The translations under genes and the position numbers were made by a program. Positions 10,029 to 17,222 of a DNA stretch of 43,707 bases are shown here, piece by piece; position 1 is the stretch's first letter, and each line of letters begins with the position of its first letter. The notes beneath the pieces are model-generated. The model had not been told where the DNA came from and ran no database searches. It was given only the letters and a program-made list of their open reading frames with translations. Origin of the DNA: Cytophagaceae bacterium (GTDB taxonomy: Bacteria > Bacteroidota > Bacteroidia > Cytophagales > Flexibacteraceae); contig JAIXQU010000176.1 in assembly GCA_027485575.1 (NCBI GenBank), forward strand, positions 1-43,707, written 5' to 3'.

Positions 10029-10117
10029 CAATACGGGAATTATGAGTCATTGCGTAATTCTCAATATTGAAAATTCTGAATAAGTCTATCTCATTCAAAA
10101 TTCAAAACCAACCACAC

Positions 10118-12175
10118 ATGCAATTCCATTTGACAGGGGATGAAATATCTCTTCACAAAACTCTAGAGGAATTGGTTTCCTTGTTTGAGCCTTATCCGGT
10201 TTGGATACTGGATGAAAGCCTGAATACTGCAGCATGTTCAAAAGCAGCAAAAAAAATCAACGAAACATTTTTCAATTCAAATTCCAATAAACACAACATA
10301 CAAGCACTAATATCAGGAACTGATGAAACCAAAACCAATTTCAGATTAAAAATTGGTTTGAAGGATGAAATATCAGGTTTATTTTCGGCCTCAAAAATAA
10401 CCATATCAGGTCATAAATATACTATCGTTAAGCCAGTGAACCCGCCAGTAGATCTTCAAATTTCCTCCCAAAATATTATAGAAGCCGAATTTGGAATATA
10501 TACCTGGCAATTCAATCTTGAATCTAATTTATTTTATTTTTCTAAAGAAGCTGCAGATAGTTTATTCGGAAAGAAGGTTAAAAACCTGGATTATCAGGAT
10601 TTCTATTCTGCCTTGTCCATTGAGTCTCTTGATAGATTTTCCCGGGCAATGGAGGAGGCCATCAATCTTAAAAAGGATTTTTCCATAGACCTCATGATAG
10701 AAAAACCAGGTGGAAATTCCTGGGTTAATTTCATCTGCAAGTCAACCCTGGATAATGAAAATGGCATTTGGCTAACTGGTTTAATTAAAGATTGCCAAAA
10801 GGAAAGAACTGAAGAAAAAGCCAAAAGAGATTTGAACCTATGGCTAAACTCTGGTTTGAATAAGCTGGAGGTAAAAAATTCAGAAGGCGAAATCATTGGG
10901 CAATGGGGGAATTCTAACCCTGACCGAGGCACAACTTTTTTAGATGGAAAAAGGTCTTCTATAATTTACGATTTTAGAAACAAACCAAAATTTAGTGTCG
11001 TTTCCGAAATTCAAAATCAAGTTGAAACCAAATCAGATTCCAAACTAAAAGAAGAGCAGGAAGAGTCAAAATCTGAAGCGATTTCCCTTCCAACCCTTGA
11101 AATTTCTGTTCCCGAATCCAACTTTAGTAAGGAGGAAAAATGTGTCGCAATAACCAAACAAATCGGAATTTCAATTGATGCCCAGGTATCCGCTCTTGGA
11201 ATATTTGATGGAAGTAGATTTGAATGGAAAGCATGGTGGAAAAGCCCGAATAAATATGCCTTACCTATAAAAAAATACAGCGGCGAATGGCTTCCGGAGC
11301 TTGATTGGTTGGTCGATGTCGAAATTGAGAACAAAAAATTTCCAGACCGCTATTGGTGGCCACAAGATATGCTTCCGTTTGAGATTGGAAAATCATTTGG
11401 TGAAGGTTGGATGCTCATCGCAGAACCTATCTCCCAAAAGGAAACTTCTGTTCTTGCAATTAAGACCAACACACCGGAAGAAGCCAAAAAACATACCGGT
11501 ACAATTCTCCAAAGTCTTGATGCCTTAAAACCGATTCGATCCGAATCAAAAGGCGAAAATTCCGTGCAAAAGTTACAAGCTGAAATACAGGAAAAAGATT
11601 TGGCCATTAAGGAGATAAACCATAGGGCAAAAAACAATCTTGCACTCGCTGCAAGTATGGTAAAAATGGAAGCAGGCTATTCTGAGAATCCTGAAGCGCT
11701 GTTTTCGCTTAAACAAACACAAAAAAGGCTTGAGACTTTGGCCTCCATTCACGAATTGCTTTACAAGAACCCAATTTCAAAAGAAACTGTTGATATCAAA
11801 GAATATCTTACACAACTTCTTGGGGGGTTAGTTTCAAGCTTTGGAAATCAGGATATTGAGTTAGAATTGCAGATTGATTCCGTAGAGATACCAATGAAAA
11901 AGGCCTGTACAATAGGCTTGTTGGTAAATGAACTTGTTTGTAATTCATTTAAATATGCATTTGAAGTTGGAAAAAAAGGACTACTTCGGGTTGATTTTTT
12001 AGATAAGGGAGATGTTTTCAAAATGAGAGTAACCGACAATGGACCAGGAATTAAGAAAAATGATAAGGACTCACTTGGAAAAATATTAATCGAAGAATTT
12101 GTAAAACAATTGGAAGGGAATATTGAAATTGACAATTCAAACGGAACTACTTTTTTTATCACTTTTAAGAAATAA
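10118..12175 (+). CDS. PAS/GAF-type sensor histidine kinase, HisKA_2 family
   Basis: A 685-residue kinase without signal peptide or membrane helix, so probably a cytoplasmic sensor. Numbered from the ATG at 10118: a short N-terminal domain (about 1-110), a PAS-like domain (about 120-230), a charged linker (about 295-335), a tryptophan-rich GAF-like domain (about 340-470, with WKAWWKS and RYWWPQD), then a HisKA_2 dimerisation domain whose phospho-acceptor is His 502 in INHRAKNN, and a HATPase domain with N box LVNELVCNSFKYAF and G1 box DNGPGIK. HisKA_2 kinases usually signal to stand-alone receivers, and one follows 27 bases later. A TTG start at 10067 would add 17 residues and cannot be excluded, because this genome clearly uses TTG. 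Confidence 0.88.
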   Translation: MQFHLTGDEISLHKTLEELVSLFEPYPVWILDESLNTAACSKAAKKINETFFNSNSNKHNIQALISGTDETKTNFRLKIGLKDEISGLFSASKITISGHKYTIVKPVNPPVDLQISSQNIIEAEFGIYTWQFNLESNLFYFSKEAADSLFGKKVKNLDYQDFYSALSIESLDRFSRAMEEAINLKKDFSIDLMIEKPGGNSWVNFICKSTLDNENGIWLTGLIKDCQKERTEEKAKRDLNLWLNSGLNKLEVKNSEGEIIGQWGNSNPDRGTTFLDGKRSSIIYDFRNKPKFSVVSEIQNQVETKSDSKLKEEQEESKSEAISLPTLEISVPESNFSKEEKCVAITKQIGISIDAQVSALGIFDGSRFEWKAWWKSPNKYALPIKKYSGEWLPELDWLVDVEIENKKFPDRYWWPQDMLPFEIGKSFGEGWMLIAEPISQKETSVLAIKTNTPEEAKKHTGTILQSLDALKPIRSESKGENSVQKLQAEIQEKDLAIKEINHRAKNNLALAASMVKMEAGYSENPEALFSLKQTQKRLETLASIHELLYKNPISKETVDIKEYLTQLLGGLVSSFGNQDIELELQIDSVEIPMKKACTIGLLVNELVCNSFKYAFEVGKKGLLRVDFLDKGDVFKMRVTDNGPGIKKNDKDSLGKILIEEFVKQLEGNIEIDNSNGTTFFITFKK

Positions 12176-12202
12176 ATCAACCAAATTCTAAATCCAGGAA
12201 AA

Positions 12203-12577
12203 TTGAAAAAAATATTAATTGTTGAAGACGAAAGAATACTTGCCGTTTCGTTAAAAATGGACCTTAATGAAATTGGGTATGAGAACATTACGATTGTAAC
12301 CAATTGTGATGATGCTTTAGACATAGTTAGACAAGGAAATTTAGATTTAGCCTTGCTTGACATCAACATTCAAGGAGATAAAACTGGAATTGATACTGCA
12401 TACTTAATCTCAGAAAAATCAGAAATTCCAGTTATCTTTTTAACCGGAGAAACAGACTTCGAGACCAGATTCAAAGCAGAATCTGCGCCAAATTGTAAGG
12501 GTTATTTAACCAAACCTGTGAAATTGGATATTTTACAGCCCCTTATTTTTCAGATTTTCAGTCTGAGTCCGGTTTAG
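12203..12577 (+). CDS. Single-domain response regulator (receiver only)
   Basis: A 124-residue CheY-like receiver with no output domain. Acidic pocket Glu 8/Asp 9, phospho-acceptor Asp 53 in LLDINIQG, Thr 81 in LTGE and Lys 104 in TKP are all present. The INIQGDKTGID loop resembles receivers paired with HisKA_2 kinases. The start is TTG at 12203: it gives MKKILIVEDE, the standard N-terminus, and no ATG is available. It lies 27 bases after the kinase gene and is the probable phosphorylation target. Its last codons overlap the stop of the convergent agmatine deiminase gene by four bases (TTAG). Confidence 0.9.
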   Translation: MKKILIVEDERILAVSLKMDLNEIGYENITIVTNCDDALDIVRQGNLDLALLDINIQGDKTGIDTAYLISEKSEIPVIFLTGETDFETRFKAESAPNCKGYLTKPVKLDILQPLIFQIFSLSPV

Positions 12578-13635
12578 ATTGGCTCTTGTTGACTCAAACA
12601 ATGAAAGCTTCCTAAGCCCCAAATCAAATCAGTAGAGTCGATTCCAAAAATCTTTCTATCCGGAAAACACCTTTGAATGGTTCTTAAGGCAATCGGATCA
12701 TTTTTTGAATCTCTAAAAGTAGGTACATACACAGCCCCATTCCCAATATAAAAATTGGCATAACTCGCCGGCAATCTCTGGTCTTCCCAAATCACCGGTT
12801 TTGGCATAGGGATTTCAATCACATTTACGGGTTTACCATCCAATAATTTAAAAGTCTTGAGCATTTTCAGATTTTCCTGAAGCACTTCATAGTTCTCATC
12901 CTCAGGGTCTTCTTCAACCACTGTAAGGATTGTGTCGGGCTTTACAAACCTGGCAATATCATCTATGTGACCATCTGTATCATCACCAACAATACCATCG
13001 CCCAACCACAAGATTTGTTCTGCTCCATAAAACTCTTTTAAATACCATTCAATCTGCTCCTGATTTAGGCTGGGATTTCTATTGGGATTCAACAAACAAG
13101 CCTTTGTAGTTAGAATGGTGCCGGCTCCATTAAACTCAACTGAGCCACCTTCCATTACAATACCAGGATTAAAAACTTCTAAACCAAGCAGTTCACCTAC
13201 TCTTGTGGGGATAACATCATCCAGATCGTAGGGCGGGTACTTTTCTCCCCAGGCATTATATCCCCAATCAATAATTGCTCTTTTTCCTTTTTGGGTTTTA
13301 TGAAGCAAAAAAGCGGGACCATGATCACGACACCAGGCATCATTGGTTGGGAAATAGTGGAACTTAACATTGTGCCAATTGAGCTCATATTTTTTTAATC
13401 TGTTAATGGCAGATTGCTCCATTTCCTTGTCTGCAATATTGATATTTACCTGCTCTAAAAAACTCAATTTGGAGATAAATTCGCAATAAGCAGGGTATGC
13501 CTCCTCAAGTTTACCCGGCCAGGAAGCCTCCTTTTGAATCCAGCTTAACCAGGTGGAAGCGTGTAATGCCCATTCGGGTGGAAAGTAATATCCTGACTGT
13601 TTAGGAGTTATAGTTGAAAAAGAAGTTTCTAACAT
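12574..13635 (-). CDS. aguA: Agmatine deiminase (PAD_porph family)
   Basis: A 353-residue cytoplasmic enzyme that hydrolyses agmatine to N-carbamoylputrescine and ammonia, a step of the arginine-to-putrescine/spermidine route. Guanidino-modifying signatures are complete: DAWCRDHGP with Arg 103 and Asp 104, MEGGS with Glu 162, DDTDGHIDD with His 223, and the nucleophile Cys 346 in GSFHCLSQQ. The length is usual. It has no signal peptide, unlike the secreted peptidylarginine deiminase of Porphyromonas. N-carbamoylputrescine amidohydrolase, its normal partner, is not in the window. Its stop overlaps that of the convergent receiver gene. Confidence 0.93.
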   Translation of the reverse strand: MLETSFSTITPKQSGYYFPPEWALHASTWLSWIQKEASWPGKLEEAYPAYCEFISKLSFLEQVNINIADKEMEQSAINRLKKYELNWHNVKFHYFPTNDAWCRDHGPAFLLHKTQKGKRAIIDWGYNAWGEKYPPYDLDDVIPTRVGELLGLEVFNPGIVMEGGSVEFNGAGTILTTKACLLNPNRNPSLNQEQIEWYLKEFYGAEQILWLGDGIVGDDTDGHIDDIARFVKPDTILTVVEEDPEDENYEVLQENLKMLKTFKLLDGKPVNVIEIPMPKPVIWEDQRLPASYANFYIGNGAVYVPTFRDSKNDPIALRTIQRCFPDRKIFGIDSTDLIWGLGSFHCLSQQEPI

Positions 13636-13660
13636 TCAATAAGGTTTTCTGTGGAATGGC

Positions 13661-13668
13661 TAGGTTTG
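13661..13668 (+). promoter_or_regulatory. Bacteroidota -7 promoter element (TAGGTTTG)
   Basis: An exact TAnnTTTG match in the 63-base divergent gap between aguA and tgt. Transcription from it would start near 13675, which excludes an upstream in-frame start for tgt at 13651 and supports the ATG at 13699. Confidence 0.6.
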
Positions 13669-13698
13669 CACTGCAAAACAACACAAAAGGAATTTAAG

Positions 13699-14829
13699 AT
13701 GAAGTTTGATCTGCAATCAAAAGATAAATTTTCTAAAGCCAGGGCTGGAATTATCCAAACAGACCATGGAACAATAGAGACTCCCATATTTATGCCAGTA
13801 GGAACTGCAGGCACAGTAAAGGCGGTTCATCAAAGAGAACTGCACCAGGATGTAAAAGCAGAAATAATTCTTGGGAATACTTATCATCTTTATTTAAGAC
13901 CTGGTCTAGATGTTTTAGAAAATGCCGGGGGATTGCACAAATTCAACCATTGGGACAAACCAATCCTGACAGATAGCGGTGGATACCAGGTTTTTAGCCT
14001 TGCTGCACAAAGAAAAATAACCGAAAAAGGGGTAACATTCAAATCCCATATTGATGGAAGCAGCCATCTTTTTACACCAGAAAGAGCGATGGAAATCCAG
14101 AGGTATATTGGAGGAGATATTGTAATGGCTTTTGATGAATGCCCACCCTACCCTTCTGAGTACAAATATGCAAGAGACTCAATGGGACTAACGCATAGAT
14201 GGCTTGATAGATGCATACAATTTATGAAAGATTCTGAACCCAAATATGGGCATACCCAAAACTTGTTTCCCATTGTCCAAGGTTCTACTTATAAAGACTT
14301 GCGAAAAGAGTCAGCTGAATTTATTGCTTCCCGCGGAATGGATGGAAATGCCATAGGTGGACTTTCAGTTGGAGAACCTGCCGAATTGATGTATGAACAC
14401 ACAGAGTGGGTGAATGAGTTTTTACCCGAGGACAAGCCAAGATATCTTATGGGTGTTGGAACGCCTGAAAATATTTTGACATGTATAGGTCTGGGAGTTG
14501 ATATGTTTGATTGTGTTATGCCAACAAGAAATGGAAGAAATGGAATGCTTTTTACAACCCAAGGCATTATTAACATTAAAAATGAGAAGTGGAAATTTGA
14601 CAACTCAAGCATTGACCCAGGTTTAGAAAGTTATTCCAGCCAGTTTTATTCTAAATCTTACCTCAGACATTTGTTCATATCCAAAGAATTCCTGGCGCTT
14701 CAAATTGCTTCGCTTCAAAATCTGGCGTTTTACATTTATCTTGTAAAGCAAGCCAGACAAAAAATTATGAATCAGGAGTTTGAGTCATGGAAATCCGGAG
14801 CCATAGCACAATATATGCAAAGACTTTAG
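13699..14829 (+). CDS. tgt: tRNA-guanine transglycosylase (queuine), lacking the zinc site
   Basis: A 376-residue enzyme that replaces guanine 34 by preQ1 in tRNAs with GUN anticodons, for queuosine synthesis. The TIM-barrel motifs are intact: Asp 92 in TDSGGYQVFSL, PIVQG at 191-195, GGLSVGE near 220-226 and the nucleophile Asp 271 in FDCVMPTRNGRNG. The zinc-binding subdomain is aligned by IDP (305-307) and YLRHL (321-325), but all four ligands (canonical C-x-C-x2-C-x25-H) are replaced: Leu 309, Ser 311, Ser 314, Gln 340. Spacing is otherwise exactly conserved. I recall that other Bacteroidota TGTs also vary here, so this may be a lineage trait. The ATG at 13699 agrees with the promoter at 13661-13668. 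queD, from the same pathway, lies at 22423. Confidence 0.95.
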   Translation: MKFDLQSKDKFSKARAGIIQTDHGTIETPIFMPVGTAGTVKAVHQRELHQDVKAEIILGNTYHLYLRPGLDVLENAGGLHKFNHWDKPILTDSGGYQVFSLAAQRKITEKGVTFKSHIDGSSHLFTPERAMEIQRYIGGDIVMAFDECPPYPSEYKYARDSMGLTHRWLDRCIQFMKDSEPKYGHTQNLFPIVQGSTYKDLRKESAEFIASRGMDGNAIGGLSVGEPAELMYEHTEWVNEFLPEDKPRYLMGVGTPENILTCIGLGVDMFDCVMPTRNGRNGMLFTTQGIINIKNEKWKFDNSSIDPGLESYSSQFYSKSYLRHLFISKEFLALQIASLQNLAFYIYLVKQARQKIMNQEFESWKSGAIAQYMQRL

Positions 14830-14844
14830 GTTTAAAAACCTAAA
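14825..14844 (+). terminator. Weak inverted repeat at the end of tgt
   Basis: TTTAGGTTT and AAACCTAAA are perfect 9-base arms separated by AA; the tgt stop TAG lies in the left arm. The stem is AT-rich and is not followed by a T-run, so termination is uncertain. The following 170 bases to the kinase gene show nothing else clear. Confidence 0.25.
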
Positions 14845-15017
14845 ATATTCAGTGGCTTATCGGAAGTCAAATCTTCCTTATTACTCCATTTGGTACAGGA
14901 ATCTTGAAATTGAAAAAAAATATTGATTTTTTGTAAATGAAATAAAAAGCTGAATTGAAGTCAAAATCGACTTTGGTGTTTAGGTTAAAAACTTAATTTC
15001 AGGGTAAATTACAAAAA

Positions 15018-17222
15018 TTGAAATCAACTACCGGAGCATCCATTCTTTCAGAAATATTTTCAAACCTTGGGCAGCTGGTTTGGAGTAAAAACATAGCTAC
15101 TGGTGAAGTTTCTTTGCTTACCGAGGGATTTGAAGAACTATTTGAATACCCGATAGCAGTCCTGAAAGAAAACCCTAGACTTTTGGTAGAGTCAATTCAT
15201 CCTGAAGATGCTCCTTATGTAGATTTGTTCTCTAAAGTACTGCTTTCCAATACATTTGAACAATCTGAATACCGGATAATTACTCCCAACGGAAAGGTAA
15301 AGTGGATTCAGGAAAGGAAAAAACTGGTAAAGGACAATCTCGGCCTGATAGAAAGGTTAGATGCTCTACTGATAGAAATAACCGAACAAAAAGAAGAAGG
15401 CCTGAGGCTTTTTGAATCTGAATCCACATTCAAGGCTTTATTTTATAAGCACCCAAGTCCGATGTGGGTTTATGATGTCGAGACTCTTTATTTTCTGGCG
15501 GTAAACGATGCTGCGATTAAGTTTTATGGATATTCTCATTATGAGTTTTTCCAGATGACAGTCAGACAAATAAGACAGCAGGAGGATATTGAAGAATTGC
15601 TGATGGCAATACGTTCCAACGATTTTGAGAAATATTCCGAAAAAACATGGAAGCATTTCAAAAAAGATGGATCTCCCATATTTGTAAAACTACAATCCAA
15701 TGCCCTGAAATTTAATGGGCACAATGCCCGGGTTGTCCATGCGATGGATATTACCAAACAGGTTGAAGCAGAAACCAAAACAGAAAATGCATACAAATAC
15801 CTTGAAAATTTTCAAGACGCTGTTTCAAGAATAAGTCTTTTGGGTTTGATGGATGAGAAAGGACACCTTGTCTTTGTAAATGAAAGTCTTTTAGAAAAAA
15901 CTGGCAATGAATCCATAGAGCTGATAGGAAAAAAATGGACCGCTCTTTTATCCAATATTTATACCCAGGAAGATTTTAATGAAATCTGGGAAATTATTCA
16001 AACCAAAAAAATATGGAATGCCCAACAGAAATTTTTAAAGAAATCGGGGCAATATTTCTGGGCAAATTGCACCATAATTTCCATAGTTGAAGGGGAACAG
16101 GCACCCTCGCAGTACCTTTTGATTGCCGACGACATCAGTAGTCTAAAAGATGCCGAGAAAAGAAATCGGGAATATGCGGTAAAGCTGCATAATATATTGG
16201 AGGGTGTAACAGATGCCATATTTGTGATTGACAAAAACTGGCTGATTACAAATACAAACAACGAAGCCAAACGTTTGCTTGGAAAAACCGGAGAATCCCT
16301 CTATGGAAAGAATATTTGGGAAATATTTCCGGCAGAAGAGGGATTTAAGTTTTACCAGTTTTTCAGAAAGGCGAAAAAACGAAAAATAACTGTTCAATTT
16401 GAGGAGTTCTATTCGCCTAATAATCAATGGTTTGATATAAGTATTTACCCCTCAAAAGATGGTCTGGCTGTATGCTTTAGAAATGTCACTGAAAGAAAGC
16501 AAAAGGAAGAAGAGCGAAAGGAGATATTAGAACATCTTATTGTTCAAAACAGAGACCTTGAAGAGTTTACCTACATAACTTCCCATAGCCTGAGGGCCCA
16601 AATTGCAAATATTATAATGCTTTCGTCTGCCCTTGATCCAAATGGCCTCACCCCACTCAATCACGAGATTTTTGAAAAATTGCATCAATCTTCCGTCAAT
16701 CTTAATATGGTGATTTCAGATTTAAACACCATTCTGACTGTTAAAAACAAAGGTCCTGTCCTTCTTGAAGATGTCAATCTTAATAATGTCTTTATTAATG
16801 CTATGGCCAAAATTCCAGCCGACCTTTCGGCCTTCAAAAAATATGTAACCCCGTCATTTGAAAAAGCGATTAAAATCAGATCGGTCAGGTCATATTTAGA
16901 AACCATTTTAAATCAATTAATTACGAATTCAATTAAGTTCAGGTCTCTTGACAAAACGCCCAAAATTGAAATCAGGTCGGAAGTTTTAAAAAATAAATGC
17001 CTGATTTCTATAATTGACAATGGCATAGGTATAGACCTCAATAAAAATGAAAAGCATCTATTTAAGCTTTACCAAACATTCCATCCAGGGAAAGGAGGAA
17101 AAGGTTTAGGTCTTTATTTGTGCAAAATCCTTGTGGACGAATTAAATGGCTCAATTGACATTTCATCCGAAAAAGACAAAGGGACCAAAATATCAATCAT
17201 TTTTCCAATTCCGGAGGCGTAA
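15018..17222 (+). CDS. Multi-PAS sensor histidine kinase
   Basis: A 734-residue soluble kinase without signal peptide or membrane helices. Four PAS-type domains can be seen at about 15-125 (PAS_3 type, ending in DALLIEITEQK), 130-250 (ending in VHAMDITKQ), 262-378 (ending in IADDISSLKD) and 385-495 (ending in CFRNVTERK). Then comes a HisKA-like helix with His 523 in TSHSLRAQIANI and a HATPase domain with N box LNQLITNSIKF, G1 DNGIGID, F box LYQTFH and G2 GGKGLGLYL. The start is TTG at 15018 (MKSTTG); no ATG is suitable. No receiver lies directly downstream; the nearest are 12203 and 17505. The 282 bases after its stop contain no gene that I can support. Confidence 0.9.
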   Translation: MKSTTGASILSEIFSNLGQLVWSKNIATGEVSLLTEGFEELFEYPIAVLKENPRLLVESIHPEDAPYVDLFSKVLLSNTFEQSEYRIITPNGKVKWIQERKKLVKDNLGLIERLDALLIEITEQKEEGLRLFESESTFKALFYKHPSPMWVYDVETLYFLAVNDAAIKFYGYSHYEFFQMTVRQIRQQEDIEELLMAIRSNDFEKYSEKTWKHFKKDGSPIFVKLQSNALKFNGHNARVVHAMDITKQVEAETKTENAYKYLENFQDAVSRISLLGLMDEKGHLVFVNESLLEKTGNESIELIGKKWTALLSNIYTQEDFNEIWEIIQTKKIWNAQQKFLKKSGQYFWANCTIISIVEGEQAPSQYLLIADDISSLKDAEKRNREYAVKLHNILEGVTDAIFVIDKNWLITNTNNEAKRLLGKTGESLYGKNIWEIFPAEEGFKFYQFFRKAKKRKITVQFEEFYSPNNQWFDISIYPSKDGLAVCFRNVTERKQKEEERKEILEHLIVQNRDLEEFTYITSHSLRAQIANIIMLSSALDPNGLTPLNHEIFEKLHQSSVNLNMVISDLNTILTVKNKGPVLLEDVNLNNVFINAMAKIPADLSAFKKYVTPSFEKAIKIRSVRSYLETILNQLITNSIKFRSLDKTPKIEIRSEVLKNKCLISIIDNGIGIDLNKNEKHLFKLYQTFHPGKGGKGLGLYLCKILVDELNGSIDISSEKDKGTKISIIFPIPEA

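Follow-up and report, generated by a model that had tools for sequence, protein, structure and literature searches.

tRNA-guanine transglycosylase (TGT) swaps a base into tRNA, the step that starts queuosine synthesis, and the enzyme is normally held together by zinc. The locus described here raises the question of what a TGT has become when none of its four zinc ligands is in place, and whether it can still work. It lies in a window, by which we mean the whole stretch of DNA that was analysed, of 43,707 nucleotides from a Cytophagaceae bacterium. The gene, tgt, occupies positions 13699–14829 of the forward strand and encodes a tRNA guanosine(34) transglycosylase of 376 amino acids (P0001), as identified from its translation with TIGR00430, which gives a full-length, equivalog-level match over residues 8–372 at 483 bits (cut-off 306.75), and with PF01702 (501 bits, cut-off 26.3). 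The mechanical open reading frame opens at a GTG at 13651; the start at 13699 was used because the alignments of most relatives begin at residue 1 of P0001. The genome, with completeness rated at 100%, gave P0001 as its one TGT match, and no second TGT, zinc-bearing or other, was found there. In the surrounding stretch (window positions 10067–17222), genes for a HisKA_2 sensor kinase and for a receiver protein on the forward strand and a Porphyromonas-type peptidyl-arginine deiminase family gene (PF04371) on the reverse strand lie just 5′ of tgt, which is followed by a multi-PAS kinase at 15018–17222.

In an alignment of P0001, E. coli K-12 TGT, and other loci (314 loci in all), with columns numbered after the E. 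coli enzyme as the reference, Leu309, Ser311, Ser314, and Gln340 of P0001 take the places of Cys302, Cys304, Cys307, and His333, exactly as an earlier note on this DNA had placed them. The former zinc loop (residues 309–314, positions 14623–14640) and Gln340 (14716–14718), both on the forward strand, read L-x-S-x2-S-x25-Q in place of the C-x-C-x2-C-x25-H of the canonical zinc site, and all four ligands that the note described as lost are indeed missing. Nor do the cysteines lie elsewhere in the C-terminal part, a possibility that the note itself had raised: the only cysteines of P0001 are Cys148, Cys172, Cys262, and Cys272, and residues 281–376 contain none. The E. coli TGT, which is of the same family and length as P0001 but has the four ligands, was reportedly described as a zinc metalloprotein by Chong in 1995. 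The Zymomonas mobilis TGT (1pud and many other PDB entries) resembles P0001 in fold, active-site residues, and dimer hot-spot positions, but it binds zinc through a Cys3His site, seen in the alignment as three cysteines and a histidine, of which P0001 keeps none.

The comparison drew on nineteen genomes including the window's own, 34 named loci (three of them duplicating G001, G003, and G004), and a draw of 395 genomes from the phylum, of which 381 have a TGT and 14 gave no TGT match; from this draw every TGT-bearing genome of the same class (83) and of the same order (14) was read, and those outside the class were read in part. The full Cys/Cys/Cys/His set is kept in none of the 116 genomes from the window's class (its own, 4 of its genus, 6 of its family, 22 of its order, and 83 of the class) and in none of 31 further named loci, 30 of them titled Bacteroidota and one an uncultured bacterium. 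The 161 rows from outside the class comprise 56 with the full set, 103 without it, and 2 without a readable C-terminal part; they are a nonrandom sample (30 best Pfam matches, 30 from one family, and the rest picked to cover families), and 56 of 159 is consequently not an estimate of frequency. By family, 10 of the 43 out-of-class families are only zinc-bearing, 31 only zinc-less, 1 mixed, and 1 unreadable, the mixed family (f40) having four genomes with the site and one without. Four zinc-less families (f25, f27, f38, and f59) are taken to be green sulphur bacteria because the FMO bacteriochlorophyll protein was found in all seven of their genomes tested (one match partial) and in none of 15 others, and they carry F-N-C-Q/H in every row but one. 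Other Bacteroidia, the green sulphur bacteria, and several sister classes have TGTs that, like P0001, lack the full set and usually keep the loop length, but other residues stand at their four columns (G-T/S-D-H, F-N-C-Q/H, and L-G-S-Q among others). The absence of the ligands is not a matter of chance, since 56 genomes of the phylum, as well as E. coli, have the full set and all 116 class genomes lack it. The earlier suggestion of a lineage-wide trait is therefore borne out for the class and the named loci, and the trait reaches further than the note had supposed, 31 families outside the class being only zinc-less.

Duplicates (L084, L020, L021, L022, and L314) were left out of all counts, and L273 and L274, in which the TGT is split or cut and the C-terminal part is absent from the frame used, were left out of the ligand counts; L243, L051, and L043, which are partial or have an internal gap, were also left out of the trees and the cysteine scan. 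In a one-contig genome (G197:C1:2356013-2357085) the TGT lies in two overlapping frames with a break near profile position 250, and this may be a pseudogene, a programmed shift, or a sequencing error.

The earlier note had taken the clean replacement of all four ligands as a sign of adaptation, a view that the comparison does not support: only 14 of the 116 class genomes, and 67 of the 250 zinc-less rows, match none of the four, and one ligand is still matched in 95 and 153 of them and two in 7 and 30, respectively. The states within the window's genus are L-S-S-Q (its own), L-G-S-Q, I-C-S-H, L-S-S-Q, and I-C-S-H, two of the four other genomes keeping Cys304 and His333, and a concerted fourfold replacement was rejected as an adaptive explanation because the ligand columns turn over inside this genus. 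The exact spacing, also claimed earlier, is kept in P0001 but is not universal, the loop being shortened by about four residues in nine named loci.

After the loss the columns turn over under constraint. Column 302 is mostly hydrophobic or Gly (chiefly Leu, Phe, Gly, or Ile), at column 307 the residue is mostly Ser (99 of the 250 zinc-less rows), Asp (84), or Cys (48), and column 333 is His (153) or Gln (97) and nothing else; column 306 is Thr in 46 of 56 zinc-bearing rows, Val in 148 of the 250 zinc-less ones, and Ser in P0001. Of the 84 rows with Asp at column 307, 83 have His333, and the remaining one is gapped. On a pruned quick LG+G4 tree, from which L268 (gapped loop) was left out, no His/Gln change at column 333 was counted among the 81 rows with Asp307 (tree length 12.8) or among zinc-bearing rows (57 including E. 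coli, tree length 21.4), as against 29 among the 165 remaining zinc-less rows (tree length 50.5), a contrast by tree length with binomial p values of 0.0014 and 3.5e-5, respectively, the Asp307-His333 test having been framed after the pattern was seen. Eight Thr307 rows are likewise unchanged at column 333, on a short tree, and the association of Asp307 with His333 was not significant by independent pairs, which were too few. The pattern suggests that an Asp307-His333 pair may stand in place of the metal where column 307 is Asp.

When the ligand columns were followed on a tree across Bacteroidota, a check that the earlier note had proposed, the loss proved widespread, and zinc state changes at least five times on a 304-row protein tree built with the zinc columns removed; a slower 105-row tree also gives five changes, with several deep branches weakly supported. 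We infer that the zinc-bearing state is the older one, because regaining four ligands is improbable and because E. coli and Z. mobilis, the two enzymes that make up the comparison beyond the phylum, bear the zinc set. A single loss of the site, in a common ancestor of all the phylum's zinc-less lineages, is in our judgment rather unlikely: an AU test did not reject a tree with the 78 zinc-less rows of the 105 forced into one clade (p 0.112), but this constraint lowers the log-likelihood by 39.5, the best trees need five changes, family f40 is mixed, and Cys307 is retained in family f33 and, with one row excepted, in the green sulphur bacteria, most others having Ser or Asp. Several losses are likely on this evidence, a single one less so. 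A stronger proposal is that the losses in this one phylum were independent and that each lineage has its own packing, a hydrophobic residue with Gln or His in some and an Asp-His pair in others, which would make the zinc requirement lineage-limited and the phylum a natural series of metal replacement; we put it forward tentatively, at somewhat under an even chance.

Among the residues that we take to form the active site, Asp271, Gln194, Gly221, and Arg277 are present in all 250 zinc-less rows, and Asp92, Asp146, Cys148, and Arg280 are missing only from gapped ones. P0001 itself carries Asp92, Asp146, Gln194, Gly221, and Asp271 at the conserved catalytic and base-recognition columns, the roles of Gln194, Gly221, and Asp271 being background on the family. 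Both catalytic aspartates are kept, as had been claimed: Asp92 (13972–13974, forward strand; E. coli Asp89) is the general acid/base and Asp271 (14509–14511, forward strand; E. coli Asp264) the nucleophile according to PMC4425180. At the Asp92 column all 56 zinc-bearing rows and 248 of the 250 zinc-less ones have Asp, the other two being gaps, and the Asp271 column is Asp in all 306 rows.

An AlphaFold2 model of P0001, made without metal from P0001 and 26 relatives, has a mean pLDDT of 90.4, with 94–97 per block over residues 301–340 (95 for 301–310 and 94 for 311–320) and 64–70 across residues 91–110, the stretch adjoining Asp92. The predicted fold is the TGT barrel, with a Z score of 47.8 to the top structural match and of 47.6 to Z. 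mobilis TGT (1pud; rmsd 1.8 over 363 residues, 44% identity). The structure prediction, another of the proposed checks, thus gives a zinc-less loop that is confidently folded within a retained TGT fold, and the high pLDDT at the old zinc site counts for little because AlphaFold2 folds metal sites without their metal anyway. No close relative of P0001 was found among solved structures, the best PDB sequence match scoring 355 bits and the structural matches listed having 42–46% identity; a Bacteroidota TGT structure has presumably not yet been solved.

Directly 3′ of the former zinc loop are the codons for Tyr317, Tyr321, and His324 (14647–14670, forward strand), which together with Phe82 (13942–13944, forward strand) align to Trp326, Tyr330, His333, and Phe92 of the Z. 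mobilis enzyme, in a numbering that we assigned ourselves from the alignment. These four Z. mobilis residues are the aromatic hot spot of the TGT dimer, according to PMC5395182. The Phe82 column is Phe in 246 of the 250 zinc-less rows, Tyr321 is kept in 248 and His324 in all 250, and position 317 is Tyr or Phe in 236; because these columns are conserved, the zinc-less enzymes probably still form dimers.

QueG, whose step comes after that of TGT, was found in each of the 12 genomes with a zinc-less TGT that were examined for it (the match in G044 has an internal stop) and in none of four TGT-less genomes, and this co-occurrence ties the zinc-less TGTs, at the level of gene content, to queuosine synthesis. 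Those four, G165, G213, G217, and G362 of genus g121 (family f45), are each 99% complete and gave no TGT or QueG matches, and they retain matches to QueA and to a YhhQ-type transporter; the fifth genome of the genus, G346, has a zinc-less TGT, QueG, QueA, and a YhhQ-type transporter. QueA was found in 30 of 30 genomes tested, including six without TGT (G058, G165, G213, G217, G362, and G386; of the 14 TGT-less genomes, six were examined for QueA and four for QueG), and the presence of QueA was set aside as a proof of TGT function, being weak when all six TGT-less genomes match it. A second QueA-like protein is encoded in the window's genome at G000:C127:4474-5637 (open frame of 413 amino acids), besides QueA at C153:2173-3204, and similar long second copies occur in G067, G090, G035, G063, and G214.

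QueH was not found in 12 genomes searched. No full-length QueC, only weak stretches, was found in the window's genome (G000), in seven others of the class (G067, G090, G035, G063, G075, G117, and G030), or in G044 from outside it, all of which have TGT, QueA, and QueG; full-length matches were found in G028, G021, and G346, and the control, Bacteroides ihuae, was also positive, so the absence is not established as class-wide. A YhhQ-family transporter is present in seven of these nine genomes, the window's included, the exceptions being G117 and G030. The QueC-less genomes look like cases of preQ1 or preQ0 salvage, by variants described in PMC6593275.

The reading in which we have considerable confidence is that P0001 is a working bacterial TGT with a zinc-free C-terminal subdomain, still exchanging its base and dimerising, its loop held by packing, and derived from one or a few old losses; the absence of metal, the activity, the dimer, and the packing contacts are inferred here from the residues, their distribution and conservation, and the model. 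The small C-terminal subdomain would no longer hold zinc, guanine-34 of the tRNA would be exchanged for preQ1 through Asp92 and Asp271, and dimers would still form by way of the aromatic patch that adjoins the former zinc loop. Side-chain packing would hold the loop itself: a large hydrophobic side chain, Leu309 in P0001, would occupy the first ligand position, the second and third would carry small polar residues, and the fourth would have a Gln or His able to hydrogen-bond to the loop, with an Asp-His pair in many relatives. The zinc-less state, which was found in every class genome read and in several other classes, would go back to one old loss or, more likely, to a few.

Asp and His can both bind zinc, and the near-constant pairing of Asp307 with His333 would fit a metal that is still bound, either noncanonically (for example, by these two residues with Ser or Thr and water) or weakly. 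We regard this as improbable, since the Leu, Ser, Ser, and Gln of P0001 include no usual zinc ligand, the loop has been shortened in the nine named loci mentioned above, and neither CxC nor CxxC occurs in the C-terminal part of any of the 247 zinc-less rows scanned. To the alternative that P0001 is a TGT in decay, or one turned into a noncatalytic protein, we give still less weight. The zinc domain is one of two hallmarks of TGT according to a paper on human QTRT1 (PMC6165067), and its disappearance could be read as decay; the persistence of QueA in TGT-less genomes also means that retention of neighboring genes is not tight evidence of function. Against this, the active-site columns are invariant in the 250 zinc-less rows, gaps aside, and in genus g121 QueG is absent from the four TGT-less genomes and present in the fifth, with its zinc-less TGT. 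It is most likely that P0001 is active without zinc, because the residues of the active site and of the dimer hot spot are conserved, prediction confidence for the loop is high, and both QueA and QueG are found. The expectation of an active enzyme in the earlier note is probably right, given that the catalytic and dimer columns are conserved throughout the zinc-less rows.

A requirement of TGT for zinc is stated in a 2022 paper (PMC9508795), which counts against the zinc-free reading. A known member of the family that, like P0001, has the TGT fold and departs from canonical residues is the eukaryotic accessory subunit QTRT2, but it is the reverse case, keeping the zinc residues and having Glu for the catalytic Asp (PMC4425180 and PMC6165067). 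We found no report of a zinc-less TGT among open-licence papers; subscription papers and the UniProt and HAMAP annotation may already have it.

Taken as it stands, the protein is a genuine and widely distributed variant of a familiar enzyme, most likely without structural zinc, and zinc seems to be dispensable for TGT in many bacteria of the phylum. Its interest lies in the conflict with the published requirement for zinc and in the replacements as a natural series, rather than in the particular residues of P0001. Should queuosine be made throughout the class by a TGT without zinc, the published requirement would have to be restricted, the pathway would cost different amounts of zinc in different phyla, and findings on the zinc subdomain or on the dimer interface might not apply to Bacteroidota. 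Because zinc-bearing and zinc-less forms occur within one phylum, the replacement of the metal would be directly testable.
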